The notes under the pieces were generated by a model. It saw only the letters and a program-made list of their open reading frames with translations, did not search any database and was not told the DNA's origin. A stretch of 50,508 nt of DNA. Source: Pirellulales bacterium. GTDB lineage: Bacteria; Planctomycetota; Planctomycetia; Pirellulales; Thermoguttaceae. The position numbers and the translations under genes are program-made. Below are positions 9,261-49,523 of this stretch, in pieces. Every line of letters starts with the position of its first letter. The first letter of the stretch is position 1. The stretch spans positions 1-50,508 of the forward strand of contig JAFGDS010000077.1 of NCBI GenBank assembly GCA_016931995.1, written 5' to 3'.

Positions 9261-11330
9261 TCACACCCGCTCGACCACCTGACGGCAGTCGGGCAAGGAC
9301 CGGAGGAAGACGCTGCCGTAGGGCTTCGTGCGGATCCGCGGGTCGAGAATGACCACCATGCCCGTGTCGCGACGCGAGCGGATCAGCCGGCCAAAGCCCT
9401 GCTTGAGTTTGAGCGCGGCGGCGGGCATCTGGTAGTCGCGAAACGGGTTGCCGCCGCCGGCGCGGATGGCTTCGAGTCGGGCTTCCAGGAGTGGGTGGTC
9501 GGGCACGGCGAAGGGCAGCCGCGTAATGATCACGTTCGAAAGCGCGTCGCCCGGCACGTCCACCCCCTGCCAAAAACTGTCCGTCCCGAACAGGACCGAC
9601 CGCGGATTCGCCTTGAACTCGGCGAGCATTCGGCTTCGCGGCATCCCTTCGGCCTGGCTCAACAGGGCGAGATTCTCCTGAGCCAGCCACGCCGCAAGCG
9701 CGTCGGCCGCGCGGCGCATCATCTGGTAGCTGGTGAAGAGCACGAACGCCCGGCCGCCGCTCCGCTCGACGTACCGGCGGATCATCGCAAAGGCGTTTCG
9801 CTCAAAGCCCGCCGGATCGTCGGCCGGGTCCGGCATCCCATCCAGCAAGATCAGCTCGGCTTGGCGGCGGTAGTCGAACGGGCTGCCCAGGCAAAGCGAC
9901 TCGCAATGCGTCAGGCCGGTGCGCGATTTGAAGAAGTCGAACGACCCCCGCTCGGTGGCCAACGTAGCGCTGGTCATCACCACGGTGGGCACCTTGTTGA
10001 AGAGCTGTTCGCGGAGGACCGGTCCCACGTCGATCGGCGCGGCGGCCAGCGCCACGCGCCGGCGGCGCCGAGGCGTGGTCACTTCGACCCAATAGACCGA
10101 GTCCTCGACGGTTTGCCCCAGCCACGCGTCGATGCCCGCGGCCAGTGCGGTCAGCCGGTTGGCCGCGGCCAAAAGATCTTGGCACTGCTCGGGGTTGTCC
10201 AGCTTCCCGCTCTCGCGGCGGATCATGGTGGAGAGCGCGCCCAGGCCTTCGGAGAGCGGATTCTCGACGACGTCGGGCCGGCGGACGCGGCCGTTGCCGC
10301 TGCGCTGGGCGGCGAGCCAATTGGCCACGTCGTCGAAGAACCGTTCGGCCCGATCGCGGCATTCGAGCACCTGCCGCTGCGGCCCGCCCAGCTTGTAGTG
10401 CACCAAAAGCCCGCGGTTGGTCCGGTCGTTGAACAGCCGCGAGAGCAAGTAGTCCACCTGTCCGCTGGTGAAGCTCATGCCCAGGTGTTCGCCGGCCACG
10501 GCCTCGACGTTGTGGGCTTCGTCGAACACGACGACGTCGTAGTCGGGCAGGATCTTGACGTTCTGGCGTCGCAGGGCAAGGTCGCTGAAGAACAGGGCGT
10601 GGTTCACCACGAGGATCTGAGCGTTGTACATCCGCCGGCGAGCGCGGTAGTAGAAGCAGTCCTTGTAGTCCGGGCAGTTCTTGCCCATGCAGTTGCCCTG
10701 GTCGCTGGCCACCTCGTCCCACACCGCGCCCAAGGGCTGGCAATCGAGATCGGAAAGCGAGCCGTCGGCTGTCTCTTTCGACCACTCGTGAATCTGGCGG
10801 AGCTGGTCGAACTCCTCGTCGTGGCTGAAGAGGCTCACGCGGCGCTCGCCGGCCATGCGGAGCCGCCGCAGGCTCAGGTAGTTACGCCGGCCCTTGACCA
10901 GCACGGCCGAAAACTCCAGCGGGATGACGCTGTTGAGAAACGGGATGTCCTTGTGGATAAGCTGCTCTTGCAGGCTGATCGTGTGCGTGGCGATCACCAC
11001 ACGGCGCCGCTTCTTTGCCGGCGACTGTCCCGATTTTCGCTCGGGGGACTGTCCCAATTTTCGTTCCGCGAAAATGGGACTGTCCCCTTCGGCAGCCCCC
11101 TCCCCACCGTCTTCCTTCGCCTCCCCCGCCGCCGCCAAAATGCTCGGCACCAGATACGCGAAGCTCTTGCCGACGCCCGTGCCCGCCTCGACCACGAGAT
11201 GACGCCGCTGGCGGATCGCCCGGGCGACGGCCTCGGCCATGGCCAATTGCTCGTCGCGGCACTCGTAGTGGGGCAGCCGCGCCGCAATACGGCCGTCAGG
11301 CCCGAGGATTTTGACCGGCGTAAGCATCAT
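9261..11330 (-). CDS. dinG: ATP-dependent DNA helicase, DinG/XPD family
   Basis: Superfamily 2 iron-sulfur helicase (5'-3') acting on damaged, replicating or R-loop DNA; 689 residues from ATG 11330. I chose this start because [20 protein letters not shown] matches the family N-terminus. GTG 11387 would add 19 residues. Walker A is EAGTGVGKS (residues 48-56). Four cysteines suitable for a 4Fe-4S cluster are C197, C214, C219 and C225. The DEAH box is FDEAH (270-273). Later motifs include [13 protein letters not shown] and [14 protein letters not shown]. An oddity is residues about 72-108, between Walker A and motif Ia: a hydrophilic insert whose residues 82-103 are encoded by a palindromic repeat (11022-11087). 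No nuclease domain is seen. Confidence 0.93.
11022..11087. repeat. REPIN-like repeat in frame inside dinG
   Basis: Three arms share the core CTGTCCC(G/A)ATTTTCG. Arm A is at 11023-11040, arm B at 11043-11063, and arm C, inverted, at 11066-11087. B and C form an inverted pair separated by a few bases; each arm also contains the near-palindrome GGGGACTGTCCC. The reading frame stays open, encoding [20 protein letters not shown]. Arm B extends into TTTTCGTTC, which matches the tandem array upstream of the RAYT gene. Confidence 0.85.
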
Positions 11331-11634
11331 TTGGCCTGGGCTGTCGCTGCGCTGGAGACCGTGCCACCGAGACATCTCCGCGACCACCCTAATTGGGGGA
11401 ACATTCGCGCAGAGAGCCCATGAATAGCCATTCTAGCCCCATCCGCGTCCCCGCTTCCAGCCCCGCCGGCTGGCCGAAAGCGTTTGTATGCTACCTTACC
11501 AAGGCGACTTGTATCGCTTCCGGGTTGAGCCTCGTCGGCACGGCGGAGGGGGCAACCGCGCCCGGTGGCTCGTACCACGTTCCACGTTTGCGCGGTCGGA
11601 TTGAACTCCGGTAGACTCTGACGGATAGGCCCAG
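11331..11634. other. Divergent intergenic region dinG/motA (304 bp)
   Basis: This region must contain the motA promoter and the dinG promoter. No consensus sigma-54 (GG-N10-GC) or sigma-28 (TAAA-N15-GCCGATAA) site was found. GGATAGG (11621-11627) is a usable ribosome binding site for motA. No gene is supported. Confidence 0.4.
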
Positions 11635-13368: not shown

Positions 13369-16263
13369 TCAGACGATCCGCAGCCCCTTCGGAAGCGATT
13401 CGCCGAAGACCAGGCTCTGCTCCTCCTCGTCCAGCCGGTCCGCCCGCTCGACCAACGCGGTATAATGCGCGGGAGCGTCCTGCGCGGCCAGCCACCGGAG
13501 CACCCGGGCGCGCGTCTTTTCGGGCAAGTCGCGATAGCGGTCGTCCGTCCGCCTGGCAAGCTGCATCGCCGCAAACGCCACCATCGGCTCCTCGCCGCCG
13601 AAGTCCATGAGTCGCTCGACCCAGCGTCGGGCAACGTCCGCCGGCGTCACGGTGTTCAGGGGACCGTACACCGGCTGCCTCGCCCCGATCCGGCCAACGG
13701 CCCAGGCAACCGCCGGGCGGACCGGCGCCATCTTCGGCTTGGGCAACAGGTCCAACAGGCAATCGCCCAGCTCGACTTTGGTCGGTCCGGCAAGCCATTC
13801 GAGCGAACCCAACAGCCGCAGGACCTCGGCCGTCTCGTGCGACCCGCCGGCCAACTCGCCGCCGCGGCCCCGGCCCGTGGTCAATTGCCGGTGCATCGCC
13901 CGAAGCGGTCCCAACACGGGGTCCGCCAGGGCCTGCTGCTGTCCGGCGGGCAAACCGCCGGCGATCCGTCGCCAGAGGATCCACCATTCCGCGCGGCATG
14001 CGGCCGTGGCGTGATAGAGCCGGCCCTGCATCACCCGCCACGTCTCGGCCACGCGCCAGTCGTCGGCGCCCAGTCCGTAGCCCGGCCGCAGGGCGAATCC
14101 CAAAAGATTCAGCCAGCGCGACTCGTGCGCTTCGCCGCGCCGCCGGCCGGCCTCGCATTGGAGGAGCCCCTCCCACAGCCGCCGCAAGAGCGACGTGGGC
14201 CATTCGTGGCGACCCGCGCCGATGGTCTCGGCCAGCCGCTTGACCAGCCCGCCCGGCTTGTCCTGGCCGTCGGGACCAAACACGTCTTCAATCCGCTCCC
14301 GACACGCCTGGAGGATCGACTCGTCGAGGAAACCTTCGCCCTCCGCGGCGCTGGCGTGCGCGGCCACGTCGGTCCGCGTCGCCGCGCGGACGTCGAACTC
14401 CAGCCGCCAACTGCCCGGACCATCCACCCGGCCGCACCACAGGTCCAGCGTGCCGATCTCCGTCAGTCGGGCGTGCAGTTCGATCGTGAACGAATCGGGG
14501 TCGGTCTTCTTCCGCTTGCGGAGCACGGTGCGGATCGGCGGCAGCGGGGTCATCCGCTCGCGGTCGATCGCCACCAGCTCGCCCGGCCGATCGGTCAGCC
14601 GCGTGCTGGAGACGAACAGCGGAAACTCGACGGGCTGGGCGACCAGAAGGTCGAAACGCCGGTCGGCCAGTTCGACCTCCTGGCCCGGCTCGGCGCTGGC
14701 CGGTACCAGGCAGACGGCTTGAGCTTGCGGCAAAGGGGACAGTCCCGTTTTTGCTGCCGCAAAAACGGGGACAGTCCCCGACTTGGCGTCTTCCACGCCG
14801 AGATAGTACGTCCGCGCCAATCCGGCGGCGATGCGCACGCCCTCGCCCCGGCGGACCATGCCGAAATACGCCGCGCCCCGGGCGACGGCCAGGTGCGGCT
14901 CGGCGTTGTCCAACACTTGCGGCCGCCAGCCGGGCTCTTCGGCAGCAAACCAGCCGCCAAGCACGTCCAACAGCCGCCGCCGGATCGCGCCGGACTCGAA
15001 CAGCCCGCCGTTGAAGAGCACCAGGTCGGGCCGGGCGGCGTCGTGCTCGCCGGCTCGATCCGGTTCGGTCGCCATCGCCGCGCGATGCGCACACAGGAAC
15101 GCCGCCAGATAGCGCGTGATCGCCGCGTCCGGGGCGTACGGCAGTCCGAATTCCTGAAAGCCCGAGCCGCGCCGCGCCGGCTTGTCCTCCAGGCCAACTC
15201 CGGGAAAGAACCCGTCCAGGAGCACCTGGCGGACCTCGTCCCGCGACACCTCGATCTGCCGCCCGCCGCCAATCAGTTTGGCGCCCGCGCCCGGAAGGTT
15301 CACCACGGTTCGTTCGGGCGCGTCGTCGGCCAGCAGCGTCTCCTTCACTTGCCGGCATACGCGCACGAGAATCGACCACGCGCGGGGCTCGATATGTCCT
15401 CCGCCGGCGAACCGGCCCTCCAGATGATGGGCCAGCGCCAGGTCGAGATTGTCGCCGCCAAGAATCAGATGATCGCCGACGGCCACGCGATGGAACCGCG
15501 CCTTGCCCTGCTGGCCGCGGCGGACGCGGATGAGCGTGAAGTCGGACGTGCCTCCGCCGCAGTCGCACACGAGGATGGTCTGGCCCGGCGAAACGTGCGA
15601 CTCCCAATCGTCGCGATGCCGGTCGATCCAGGCGTAGAACGCCGCCTGGGGCTCCTCGATGAGCACCACGCGGGGCAAGCCCGCCCGGGCCGCGGCCTTC
15701 ACGGTCAACTCGCGGGCGACCTCGTCGAACGAGGCGGGCAGCGTGAGCACGACGTCCTGCTCGGCCAGCGGATAGTCTGGCCGTTGGGCATCCCACGCCT
15801 CCCGGATGTGCAACAAGTACCGCGCGCTCGCCTCGACCGGCGAAAGCCGCTCGACGTCCAAGGCCCCCTGCCACGGCAACAAGGCCGCCATGCGGTCCAC
15901 GCCCGAGTGGCAAAGCCAACTCTTGGCCGACGCGATCAGCCGCCCCGGCGCCAGCGCGCCGTGATCCCGCGCGAAGGCGCCCACCACGCGGCGCGGCGGC
16001 TCGCCGCTCCAGGGCATCCGCAGGGCGTCGCCGGTCAACTCGCCGGACGCCGCTTCGTAATGAAACGAGGGGAGTGTCTGCCGGGCTTCCACCTGGCCGG
16101 GGGCCACCAACTGCGGGATGGCGAATGTCCGCACTTGCCACGGCGACTCCCGCGCATCGACAAAACCCACCGCCGAATTCGTCGTCCCCAAATCAATCCC
16201 GACGACATACCTCGCCCGCGCGTCTTCGGACGAATCGCGGAATTCCGCGTGGGCTTTCTGCAC
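13369..16263 (-). CDS. Large atypical Hsp70 (DnaK-related, DUF3731-type C-terminus)
   Basis: Protein of 964 residues with an N-terminal Hsp70 ATPase domain: phosphate 1 motif VVGIDLGTTNSAVGFVD (about residues 20-36), phosphate 2 motif ILVCDCGGGTSDFTLIRV, and connect-type sequence VVLIEEPQAAFYAW. The substrate-binding domain and lid of DnaK are not recognisable. The C-terminal about 400 residues are helical (WEGLLQCEAGRRRGEAHESRW) and resemble the DnaK-related DUF3731 region found on long Hsp70-like proteins. No DnaJ or GrpE gene is nearby. GAAGGTG precedes ATG 16263. Residues about 495-510 are encoded by a palindromic repeat (14735-14779), in frame. The client and role are unknown. Confidence 0.9.
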   Translation of the reverse strand: MQKAHAEFRDSSEDARARYVVGIDLGTTNSAVGFVDARESPWQVRTFAIPQLVAPGQVEARQTLPSFHYEAASGELTGDALRMPWSGEPPRRVVGAFARDHGALAPGRLIASAKSWLCHSGVDRMAALLPWQGALDVERLSPVEASARYLLHIREAWDAQRPDYPLAEQDVVLTLPASFDEVARELTVKAAARAGLPRVVLIEEPQAAFYAWIDRHRDDWESHVSPGQTILVCDCGGGTSDFTLIRVRRGQQGKARFHRVAVGDHLILGGDNLDLALAHHLEGRFAGGGHIEPRAWSILVRVCRQVKETLLADDAPERTVVNLPGAGAKLIGGGRQIEVSRDEVRQVLLDGFFPGVGLEDKPARRGSGFQEFGLPYAPDAAITRYLAAFLCAHRAAMATEPDRAGEHDAARPDLVLFNGGLFESGAIRRRLLDVLGGWFAAEEPGWRPQVLDNAEPHLAVARGAAYFGMVRRGEGVRIAAGLARTYYLGVEDAKSGTVPVFAAAKTGLSPLPQAQAVCLVPASAEPGQEVELADRRFDLLVAQPVEFPLFVSSTRLTDRPGELVAIDRERMTPLPPIRTVLRKRKKTDPDSFTIELHARLTEIGTLDLWCGRVDGPGSWRLEFDVRAATRTDVAAHASAAEGEGFLDESILQACRERIEDVFGPDGQDKPGGLVKRLAETIGAGRHEWPTSLLRRLWEGLLQCEAGRRRGEAHESRWLNLLGFALRPGYGLGADDWRVAETWRVMQGRLYHATAACRAEWWILWRRIAGGLPAGQQQALADPVLGPLRAMHRQLTTGRGRGGELAGGSHETAEVLRLLGSLEWLAGPTKVELGDCLLDLLPKPKMAPVRPAVAWAVGRIGARQPVYGPLNTVTPADVARRWVERLMDFGGEEPMVAFAAMQLARRTDDRYRDLPEKTRARVLRWLAAQDAPAHYTALVERADRLDEEEQSLVFGESLPKGLRIV
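14735..14779. repeat. REPIN-like inverted repeat in frame inside hsp70
   Basis: 45-bp element made of two inverted arms: GGGGACAGTCCCGTTTTTGC (14735-14754) and, on the opposite strand, the same sequence with T for A and one extra C (14759-14779). The centre is TGCC. It encodes KSGTVPVFAAAKTGLSP without breaking the frame. The arm shares GTCCCGTTTTTGC exactly with the right flank of the RAYT gene (49233-49248). Confidence 0.88.
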
Positions 16264-48362: not shown

Positions 48363-48454
48363 GAACGAAAACGGAGAACGAAAACGGGGAACGAAAACGG
48401 GACAGGAACGAAAACGGGAGGAACGAAAACGGGACAGGAACGAAAACGGGACAG
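48363..48454. repeat. Six-unit tandem array GAACGAAAACGGG(ACAG)
   Basis: Units start at 48363, 48376, 48389, 48406, 48421 and 48438 and are 13, 13, 17, 15, 17 and 17 bp long, all starting GAACGAAAACGG. The reverse complement of the full unit is CTGTCCCGTTTTCGTTC, which matches the REPIN-like arm in dinG apart from a one-base change and a one-base insertion. Confidence 0.9.
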
Positions 48455-48479
48455 GTACGATATTGACAAAATAGGTAAG
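48443..48479. repeat. Left inverted arm of the RAYT unit
   Basis: 37 bp starting AAAACGGGACAGGTACGATA, overlapping the last array unit. It pairs with 49209-49245 (32 of 37 positions by eye). Confidence 0.85.
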
Positions 48480-48497
48480 GGCTTTTAGCGTGGGGGG

Positions 48498-49193
48498 ATG
48501 CCTCGCACTGCACGAATCGCGCCGGGAGGGATGGTCTTTCACGTTCTCAATCGGGGCATTGCGCGGATGCAGATCTTCGAGAAGCCCGGGGATTACGAGG
48601 CGTTCGAGCGAACGGTGTGCGAGACGTTACAGGAGGCGCCGATGCGGATTTGCGCCTACTGCGTGCTTCCCAATCACTGGCACTTGCTGCTTTGGCCGCA
48701 GCGCGACGGCGACCTGGCCAAGTTCATGCACCGATTGACCATCACGCACGTGCGGCGCTGGCAGGAGCACCGGCATTTTGTGGGGCTCGGTCACGTGTAC
48801 CAGAGTCGATACAAGTCGTTTCCGGTTGAAGAGGACGAGCATTTTTTGGCGGTGGCCCGATACGTCGAGCGGAACGCCCTGCGGGCCAACCTGGTCGAGC
48901 GTGCCGAAGCGTGGCGTTGGTCGAGCCTGTGGCGTCGTTGTCGCGGGGGAACGGAGGAGAAGGCGATTCTCGCGACCTGTCCGGTCGAGTTGCCCGGCGA
49001 TTGGATCGAGCGCGTCAACCGGGCCGACAACAAAAAGGAGTTGGAGGCGTTACGCCGGAGCGTCCATCGCGGCCGTCCGTACGGCACGTCCGATTGGCAG
49101 CAGCGCATCGCGAAACGCCTCGGCCTGGAATCCGCCTACCGTGCGGTCGGCCGACCGCGAATCGGTCGCCATGCCAAGTCCGCGCCAGAGTAG
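48498..49193 (+). CDS. REP-associated tyrosine transposase (RAYT, Y1 family)
   Basis: Y1_Tnp/IS200-related single-strand transposase of 231 residues. The family N-terminus MPRTARIAPGGMVFHVLNRG is followed by the histidine-hydrophobic-histidine motif NHWH (59-62) that binds metal. The catalytic tyrosine is one of Y101 or Y105 in VYQSRYKSF. RYVERNALRANLVERAEAWR is the RAYT-specific segment. The family is single copy, non-selfish in most hosts, and linked to mobilisation of REP/REPIN palindromes. Flanking inverted arms (48443-48479, 49209-49245) and the tandem array carry that repeat core. The start ATG 48498 lies in GGGGGGATG, so no separate Shine-Dalgarno is visible. The frame is intact. Confidence 0.92.
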   Translation: MPRTARIAPGGMVFHVLNRGIARMQIFEKPGDYEAFERTVCETLQEAPMRICAYCVLPNHWHLLLWPQRDGDLAKFMHRLTITHVRRWQEHRHFVGLGHVYQSRYKSFPVEEDEHFLAVARYVERNALRANLVERAEAWRWSSLWRRCRGGTEEKAILATCPVELPGDWIERVNRADNKKELEALRRSVHRGRPYGTSDWQQRIAKRLGLESAYRAVGRPRIGRHAKSAPE

Positions 49194-49208
49194 GAACGCG
49201 AGACGCAG

Positions 49209-49245
49209 CTTCCCCATCTTGCCAATATCGGACCTGTCCCGTTTT
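49209..49245. repeat. Right inverted arm of the RAYT unit
   Basis: 37 bp containing CAATATCGGACCTGTCCCGT, which continues TTTTGCC. The stretch GTCCCGTTTTTGC is identical to 13 bp in the hsp70 intragenic repeat. Confidence 0.85.
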
Positions 49246-49523
49246 TGCCCCTTAAGCAAATGGGCTGCACTGAATGCGTGATTAACATTGTTGCGTGTGG
49301 CGGTGGCGGCGAGGACCCGGTCTTGGCAAGAAAGCGCCGGATGGAAATGGCCGATAACACGGGATGCACTGTGTGCGGCTCAAAAGGTCCAGTAACCCCC
49401 GGAATCGACACCCTCGACCGAGGCCATGGCGAGGATTGGAGCCACACGTGTGAACATCCAAGTGACTACAGTCCATGGCCGTTTAAGCCTACCGTCCCTC
49501 CGTATGGGTAGTGCGTCAGAAAG

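Follow-up and report, generated by a model that had tools for sequence, protein, structure and literature searches.

In-frame hairpin inserts in the genes of a Pirellulales genome that carries a TIRYT-like Y1 transposase with related ends

A transposase element between inverted repeats

The window, namely the whole stretch of 50,508 nucleotides analysed here, is contig C119 of a Pirellulales-type MAG (G000) of 5,430,075 bases in 153 contigs. It carries a gene for a predicted Y1 (HUH) transposase, flanked by terminal inverted repeats and preceded by a tandem array, as well as a dinG-type and an hsp70-like gene that each hold a palindromic segment in frame (Table 1). The six-unit array described in the initial annotation is borne out by six copies of GAACGAAAACGG starting at 48363, 48376, 48389, 48406, 48421 and 48438, where 0 are expected by chance, and 3/6 of these units run on to GGGACAG. 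The inverted arms recorded there are present as well, with the correction that a length of 37 bp was too short.

Table 1 Features of the window that bear on the transposase element and the in-frame palindromes
Feature	Position	Strand	Details
DinG-type helicase host gene	9261..11387	-	708 aa; Pfam Helicase_C_2 1.3e-45, DEAD_2 2.6e-8; codon model
Three-box in-frame palindrome in dinG	11020..11087	-	24-residue predicted peptide
HSP70/DUF3731 host gene	13369..16263	-	964 aa; Pfam DUF3731 7e-76, HSP70 1.2e-16
Two-box 45-bp in-frame palindrome in hsp70-like gene	14735..14779	+	Predicted peptide SGTVPVFAAAKTGLSP on gene strand
Six-unit tandem array GAACGAAAACGG(GACAG), left of transposase	48363..48454	+	Unit like palindrome right half-arm
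Left terminal inverted repeat of transposase element	48436..48479	.	44 nt, 82% complementary to right
Predicted TIRYT-like Y1 (HUH) transposase gene	48498..49193	+	231 aa; PF01797 5e-13
Right terminal inverted repeat, contains CCTGTCCCGTTTTTGC	49209..49252	.	44 nt, 82% complementary to left

The predicted enzyme has the HUH motif and a tyrosine of the Y1 fold: H60, H62 and the candidate catalytic Y122 are invariant in 7 aligned homologues, and the choice of Y122 follows the alignment to 4er8. Its match to NF047646 reaches 67.9 bits, below the cut-off of 80, and phmmer aligns it to the TnpA_REP of 4er8 at 4.7e-5. The predicted structure (mean pLDDT 72.6) finds its best PDB match in the same entry, TnpA_REP on its REP hairpin (E 4.9e-7), and continues after the core with model helices at residues 169-174, 179-191 and 198-207, at a pLDDT of about 65-73 that falls below 50 from residue 213; Pfam gave no match to an HTH domain in the transposase. 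The closest named homologues come mostly from planctomycete MAGs, including Pirellulales. Judged from sequence and model, the enzyme is a predicted Y1/HUH protein of the TnpA_REP kind.

Terminal inverted repeats flank the gene, and inverted ends occur at homologues too. The repeat of the window reads CGGGACAG, one base from the consensus GGGGWSAS, and GGGGACAG is found at the homologues in G014, G024, G025 and G040. By its GGGACAG terminal inverted repeats the transposase appears closest to the TIRYTs of Di Nocera 2013 (PMC3733652), or subclass 2.1 of Quentin 2018 (PMC6006769), more than to a GTAG-REP RAYT. The initial annotation had named it a RAYT, which holds for the kind of enzyme (a Y1 protein like TnpA_REP) and less well for the class, TIRYT-like being the better description given these GGGACAG repeats and a palindrome that lacks the GTAG, GTGG and CGTC tags.

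Further Y1 genes were seen elsewhere in G000. A second TIRYT (L107, contig C45) has a different end motif, AAACGGGGACGCAGCTAG, which is found in G089 (L145) too, and another transposase homologue (L106, contig C109) is broken by a TGA stop.

The dinG and hsp70 palindromes belong to one genome-wide hairpin family

As the initial annotation proposed, paired inverted cores lie within both host genes, as a three-box segment in dinG and a two-box segment in hsp70, and neither breaks the reading frame: the two ORFs are open throughout and retain their Pfam matches. The two segments are members of a single hairpin family of this MAG. Its core, GGGACWGTCCC, occurs in 163 copies in the 5.43 Mb of G000 and GGGACAGTCCCC in 104 copies genome-wide, each against 0 in the reversed control, far above chance. 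It is this genome-wide count that establishes the family, because a relaxed 12-mer does not reach significance within the window alone (12 matches against 7.4 expected, with at least 12 in 14/100 shuffles). A dinG query matched five unrelated places of its own genome. The palindromes are also related to the sequence around the transposase, as had been suggested. The 13-mer GTCCCGTTTTTGC is shared exactly by the right arm (49236-49248) and the hsp70 copy (14742-14754), with 0 expected; CGAAAACGGGACAG is present in the array left of the transposase, and the array unit, said earlier to resemble the dinG arm, is close to a palindrome half-arm.

The anatomy of the family was described from 80 stretches around places among the matches listed, together with the window (990,050 bases, 100 box clusters), a sample that is part of all copies in G000 and is biased towards boxes with a following C. 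Paired inverted arms form one hairpin in many dispersed copies. The usual form is 45 bp long, with two boxes 31-32 bp apart around inverted A/T-rich arms, and its unit reads AAGGGGACAGTCCC-[A/C/G]TTTTCGC-loop-GCGAAAA-T-C-GGGACAGTCCCC. The 47-nt consensus folds into a single hairpin in which an A-A mismatch at the centre and a bulge of one unpaired base are both conserved. Across four genomes 71 box pairs have the same orientation and 4 the opposite one (G000 43/1, G014 7/0, G019 12/3, G016 9/0), although the G014 copies and part of the G019 copies lie within MITEs and hence are not independent; the opposite-oriented pairs of G019 resemble a second hairpin family, of symmetric type. C predominates at the unpaired position, with 'ATC' ahead of box 2 in 23/43 copies of G000, 7/7 of G014, 11/12 of G019 and 8/9 of G016. 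The short copies lack MITE tips and have conserved edges of their own.

In none of its six frames does the hairpin consensus contain a stop. For the 66 single copies, 62, 48 and 63 are open in frames 0, 1 and 2 of the same strand and 64, 57 and 64 in those of the opposite strand. This openness is unremarkable, as 25% of random hairpins of like composition are also open. On neither strand does the 47-nt consensus contain a GTAG or GTGG tag, nor does the hairpin consensus contain a CGTC tag; the absence of the former led us to reject a classical GTAG-REP/RAYT pair.

Two other repeats were noted in G000: a dispersed palindrome like CACTGGCAAAGCCAGTGGCAC that lies between genes (L104, L108), and a single-box variant with the flanking inverted pair CCAATGG.../CCATTGGACACCGGAGCCATG at three places (L062:5974, L063:2462, L066:6046).

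The family in other genomes and its MITE-borne copies

The hairpin family is also present in other MAGs of the same taxonomic family. In a sample of the phylum, exact two-box pairs occur in 9/294 genomes. G000 has 37 such pairs; the other eight genomes have few, and the pairs listed for these differ from G000 in their arms. The spread within the family rests on a survey of family genomes, since G000 had a single family member beside it in the phylum sample.

In relatives, part of the copy number belongs to a separate MITE with 8-bp target site duplications (TSDs) that carries the palindrome. It was found at L260-L269 in G014 and L210-L259 in G019, measures 144-205 bp, and has tips of the form GTAA(G/C)CGTTCAC...GTGAACGGTTAC, which look IS66-like, with the palindrome inside.

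Relatives lack the inserts

All genomes searched for relatives come from genera other than that of G000. Comparison of orthologues showed the hsp70 element to be absent from 22/22 aligned relatives, four of which have unrelated long linkers at the site, and the dinG element to be absent from 28/29. Since relatives lack the inserts and the core exceeds chance genome-wide, neither objection that the initial annotation raised against its own proposal (segments conserved across distant relatives, a core at chance frequency) holds.

Nine of 12 further host segments examined matched homologues in the fetched loci, and for the other three no homologue was found there. Relatives have the empty site in genes for a lipoamide-dehydrogenase-like protein (6/6), squalene-hopene cyclase (SHC; 5/5), a glycosyltransferase (6/6), DNA polymerase I (3/3), a NuoL-like protein (1/1), a KDO transferase (2/2) and an FtsX-permease (2/2), and the sites in the AIRS-domain and SNF2 hosts are ambiguous or lie in linkers that vary among relatives. 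By Pfam bounds, the inserts fall between domains in the polymerase, the glycosyltransferase and the AIRS-protein, and within domain matches in the dehydrogenase, the cyclase and an aminotransferase. Left of its element, the KDO transferase gene shows a tandem reiteration of the flank (GSAK repeats) that reaches up to the insert.

G020 and G021, both of genus g16, carry the same three-box palindrome at the same dinG linker as G000, and this first palindrome is absent from G016 and G014. Between G000 and G021 the insert is 91% identical in DNA (87% at third positions) and the remaining gene 71% (56%); between G020 and G021 insert and remaining gene are alike at 96%. The insert (window:11020-11087 against L331 and L177) is thus far better conserved between genera than its host gene, and the alternatives are independent acquisition by the two genera at a single tolerant position or homogenisation. 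A second, different palindrome with a longer symmetric stem lies in frame near residue 493 in dinG of G020 and G021 (L177, about 2925-2987, and L331) and is absent from G000; palindromes of the same type were seen in G019 (L241, L248, L257).

Copies inside genes favour certain reading frames

We next consider the intragenic and intergenic copies and their frame phase, a comparison that the initial annotation had called for. Of 100 clusters examined in G000, 43 lie within predicted genes, 54 between genes and 3 at edges, as judged by a simple codon-model caller with a coding fraction of 0.76. Among the short forms with two or three boxes, 34/65 are intragenic, below that fraction (p 3e-5); although fewer in genes than it predicts, they are far from extragenic. 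In a stricter test the ORF had to run without a stop across the element and for 300 bases on either side, with both flanks coding-like under a codon model trained on G000 only, and clusters too near an end were set aside (3 in G000, 0 in G016, 10 in G019, 1 in G014). The coding frame is continuous across the element in 24/97 clusters of G000, 8/12 of G016 (another genus), 6/30 of G019 and 0/10 of G014. Divided by type, strict in-frame copies make up 0/16 of the MITE-type and 38/133 of the non-MITE copies (Fisher p 0.012).

With the start of each cluster as anchor, the 43 copies inside genes fall into phases 0/1/2 as 17/1/5 on the same strand and 11/1/8 on the opposite strand, so that phase 1 holds 2/43 copies and 0/23 robust ones. 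Re-anchoring on true box pairs was possible for 38/43 intragenic copies, which occur in both orientations. The two disfavoured frames (GQS/GLSR-type) then hold 4/38 copies (L122, L124, L125 and the second element of L064), or 1/22 where both flanks are coding, where openness predicts about 29% (p about 0.005 for either count); the bias is accordingly weaker after re-anchoring, the share moving from 2/43 to 4/38 and, for robust copies, from 0/23 to 1/22. The commonest frame, GDSP...GTVP/GQSP, accounts for 18/38 re-anchored copies (p 2e-5), and 6/7 two-box in-frame copies of G016 read GDSP. For the opposite-strand copies and for L110 the re-anchored frame was taken from the predicted peptide. 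Frame use is therefore skewed, not exclusive. A count of 45-bp against other two-box spans within genes gave 21/24 vs 16/27 (p 0.03), an enrichment that we regard as weak because the in-frame copies of G016 are 44 bp long; with such copies present, inserts are not bound to a length of 3n. The peptides that the inserts add to host proteins are predicted translations. In sum, several unrelated genes contain in-frame insertions that relatives lack, as with RPEs, and a real family of in-frame hairpin inserts is strongly supported.

Evidence that connects the transposase with the hairpins

GGGACAG-ended homologues of the transposase occur in 8/20 genomes read, counting the best homologue per genome. 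More than 50 boxes are found in 6/8 genomes with such a homologue against 1/12 others (Fisher 0.004), a count that includes G020 and G021 of one genus, takes the best homologue per genome only and counts MITE copies in G014. Over the family genomes, 13/42 with a homologue and 0/77 without one exceed 50 boxes (3e-7), related genomes being included in these co-occurrence counts; by genus the figures are 9/29 and 0/11 (p 0.043). At the insertion sites, a reiterated left flank (at most 1 mismatch) accompanies 3/59 palindromes against 24/3770 control sites (0.64%; p 0.006), and left-flank reiteration is also seen at TIRYT ends; right-flank reiteration was found at 0/57 palindromes.

Other observations complicate the picture. 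Among the homologue loci read, which are part of those present, no GGGACAG-ended homologue was found in G016 (138 boxes, 5 loci), G007 (90 boxes, 3 loci) or G032 (226 boxes, 4 loci). G003 has 27 boxes and gave no match to a transposase homologue, and G040 and G025 have a GGGACAG-ended homologue yet 8 and 13 boxes. Nor does the palindrome simply duplicate the ends of the transposase element, whose terminal inverted repeats lack the GGGACWGTCCC fusion, and TIRYT ends vary between genomes.

Taken together, the shared end sequence, the flank reiteration and the co-occurrence make it likely that a TIRYT-like enzyme mobilises the hairpins. The link consists of end similarity and correlation, and three hairpin-rich genomes showed no matching end in the loci read. 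The association of transposase and palindromes asserted in the initial annotation thus stands as regards related ends and co-occurrence, and the enzyme's part as mover is something we infer, with G016, G007 and G032 as cases that do not fit in the loci read.

Proposed mechanism and alternatives

Many similar copies, their absence in orthologues, in-frame copies in unrelated genes, the frame skew and the asymmetric hairpin directly support short non-autonomous mobile hairpins, REPIN- or RPE-like in character. We consider it moderately probable (roughly 0.6) that these are moved by a TIRYT-type HUH/Y1 transposase. Such an enzyme, for example the one encoded at 48498-49193, would recognise the irregular single-strand hairpin, which carries what may be the transposase's own end motif, GGGACAG beside an A-rich stretch. 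It would nick and transfer the hairpin with one polarity and paste it next to A(A/G)AG. Those copies that fall in a linker and encode harmless short peptides (GDSPIFA...GTVP) would persist, and others would be purged. In a stronger form of the proposal, which we think rather unlikely, the TIRYT-driven selfish hairpin would have become coding-compatible, through its usual length of 45 bp, a consensus open in six frames and frame-preferring insertion beside A(A/G)AG, so that genes would be its normal habitat and the proteins of several genera would be routinely lengthened.

That a different enzyme moves the in-frame hairpins, their likeness to TIRYT ends being a common G-rich motif or a trace of old shared origin, is possible though doubtful. 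It would account for the hairpin-rich G016, G007 and G032, with their lack of GGGACAG-ended homologues in the loci read, and for G003 with none, as well as for arms that stay constant (ATTTTCG-like) in G000, G014, G016 and G019 while TIRYT ends vary; it leaves aside, however, the co-occurrence by end class (0.004), the exact 13-mer in G000 and a left-flank reiteration common to TIRYT ends. Were the mobile unit instead the MITE (144-205 bp, 8-bp TSD, GTAA...TTAC tips), with the short palindromes as its remnants or captured core, one would understand why box pairs lie inside MITEs in G014 and G019, where the TSD has 0-1 mismatch in 5/8 and 6/10 cases. This is improbable in view of the lack of in-frame copies among the MITE-type elements (0/16, against 38/133), of short copies that have their own edges and no MITE tips, and of G016, where all 12 tested copies are non-MITE; as sole explanation the MITE was rejected.

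Retention for a function, such as regulator binding or RNA structure in messages, could explain a sharply conserved palindromic box and a dinG insert better conserved between genera (91%) than the remaining gene (71%), but unrelated hosts, both orientations among re-anchored intragenic copies and absence in relatives make it very improbable. Chance or artefact, be it low-complexity G-rich sequence or an assembly error, is practically negligible: the non-significant 12-mer of the window is outweighed by the genome-wide counts of the core and of GGGACAGTCCCC against empty controls, on which this explanation was rejected, and by recurrence of the family in other MAGs of the taxonomic family.

Significance

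In-frame palindromes and TIRYTs are each already known, the former for a long time, mainly in Rickettsia and without a known moving enzyme. The planctomycete case is not the first, because in-frame REP-like inserts have been published for other species (PMC3733652). Here a family of coding palindromes with a large in-gene share occurs in genomes that carry Y1 transposases bearing related ends, and this co-presence makes it testable which enzyme moves coding palindromes. Equally open to test is the source of the frame skew, be it target choice or peptide selection. For annotation, GDSPIFA/GTVP-like stretches in planctomycete proteins should be regarded as probably transposon-derived and as a cause of spurious similarity. 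The system offers a favourable setting in which to study how mobile DNA that is compatible with genes moves.

Comparison with known systems

No earlier description of the planctomycete hairpin family was found among the literature titles and abstracts listed, and the TIRYT sections of PMC3733652 and PMC6006769 contain no account of a TIRYT-related repeat that invades genes in frame. With REPIN/RAYT systems (GTAG REPs and TnpA_REP) the family shares paired inverted arms that form one imperfect hairpin, and a Y1 (HUH) transposase near related sequence. The irregular stem recalls the REP bulge of E. coli, whose TnpA_REP requires the mismatched bulge of its REP (PMC8266576). Unlike REPs, the hairpin consensus lacks GTAG/GTGG, and most REPs are extragenic, whereas 43/100 clusters here lie in predicted genes. 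Intragenic GTAG repeats have a precedent in Opitutus terrae, to which most of those described in PMC3733652 belong.

TIRtrons and TIRYTs likewise have a Y1 gene between terminal inverted repeats, and in the sections of PMC3733652 and PMC6006769 that treat them the TIR consensus is GGGGWSAS and some TIRs make up families of dimeric repeats dispersed in the genome; the window differs in reading CGGGACAG in place of four Gs. The insertion of REPs in tnpA_REP genes of subclass 2.4, as outlined in the corresponding part of Quentin 2018 (PMC6006769), is confined to the transposase gene, in contrast to the many unrelated hosts seen here. Closest in behaviour are the RPEs, short palindromes in frame within many unrelated genes, which in R. 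conorii are tolerated at protein level as summarised in the RPE part of PMC3733652. The sequence differs, the planctomycete hairpin having no CGTC tag, and while that paper finds the CGTC/RPE type to lack a transposase of its own, the planctomycete family has a TIRYT-type Y1 candidate with related end sequence.
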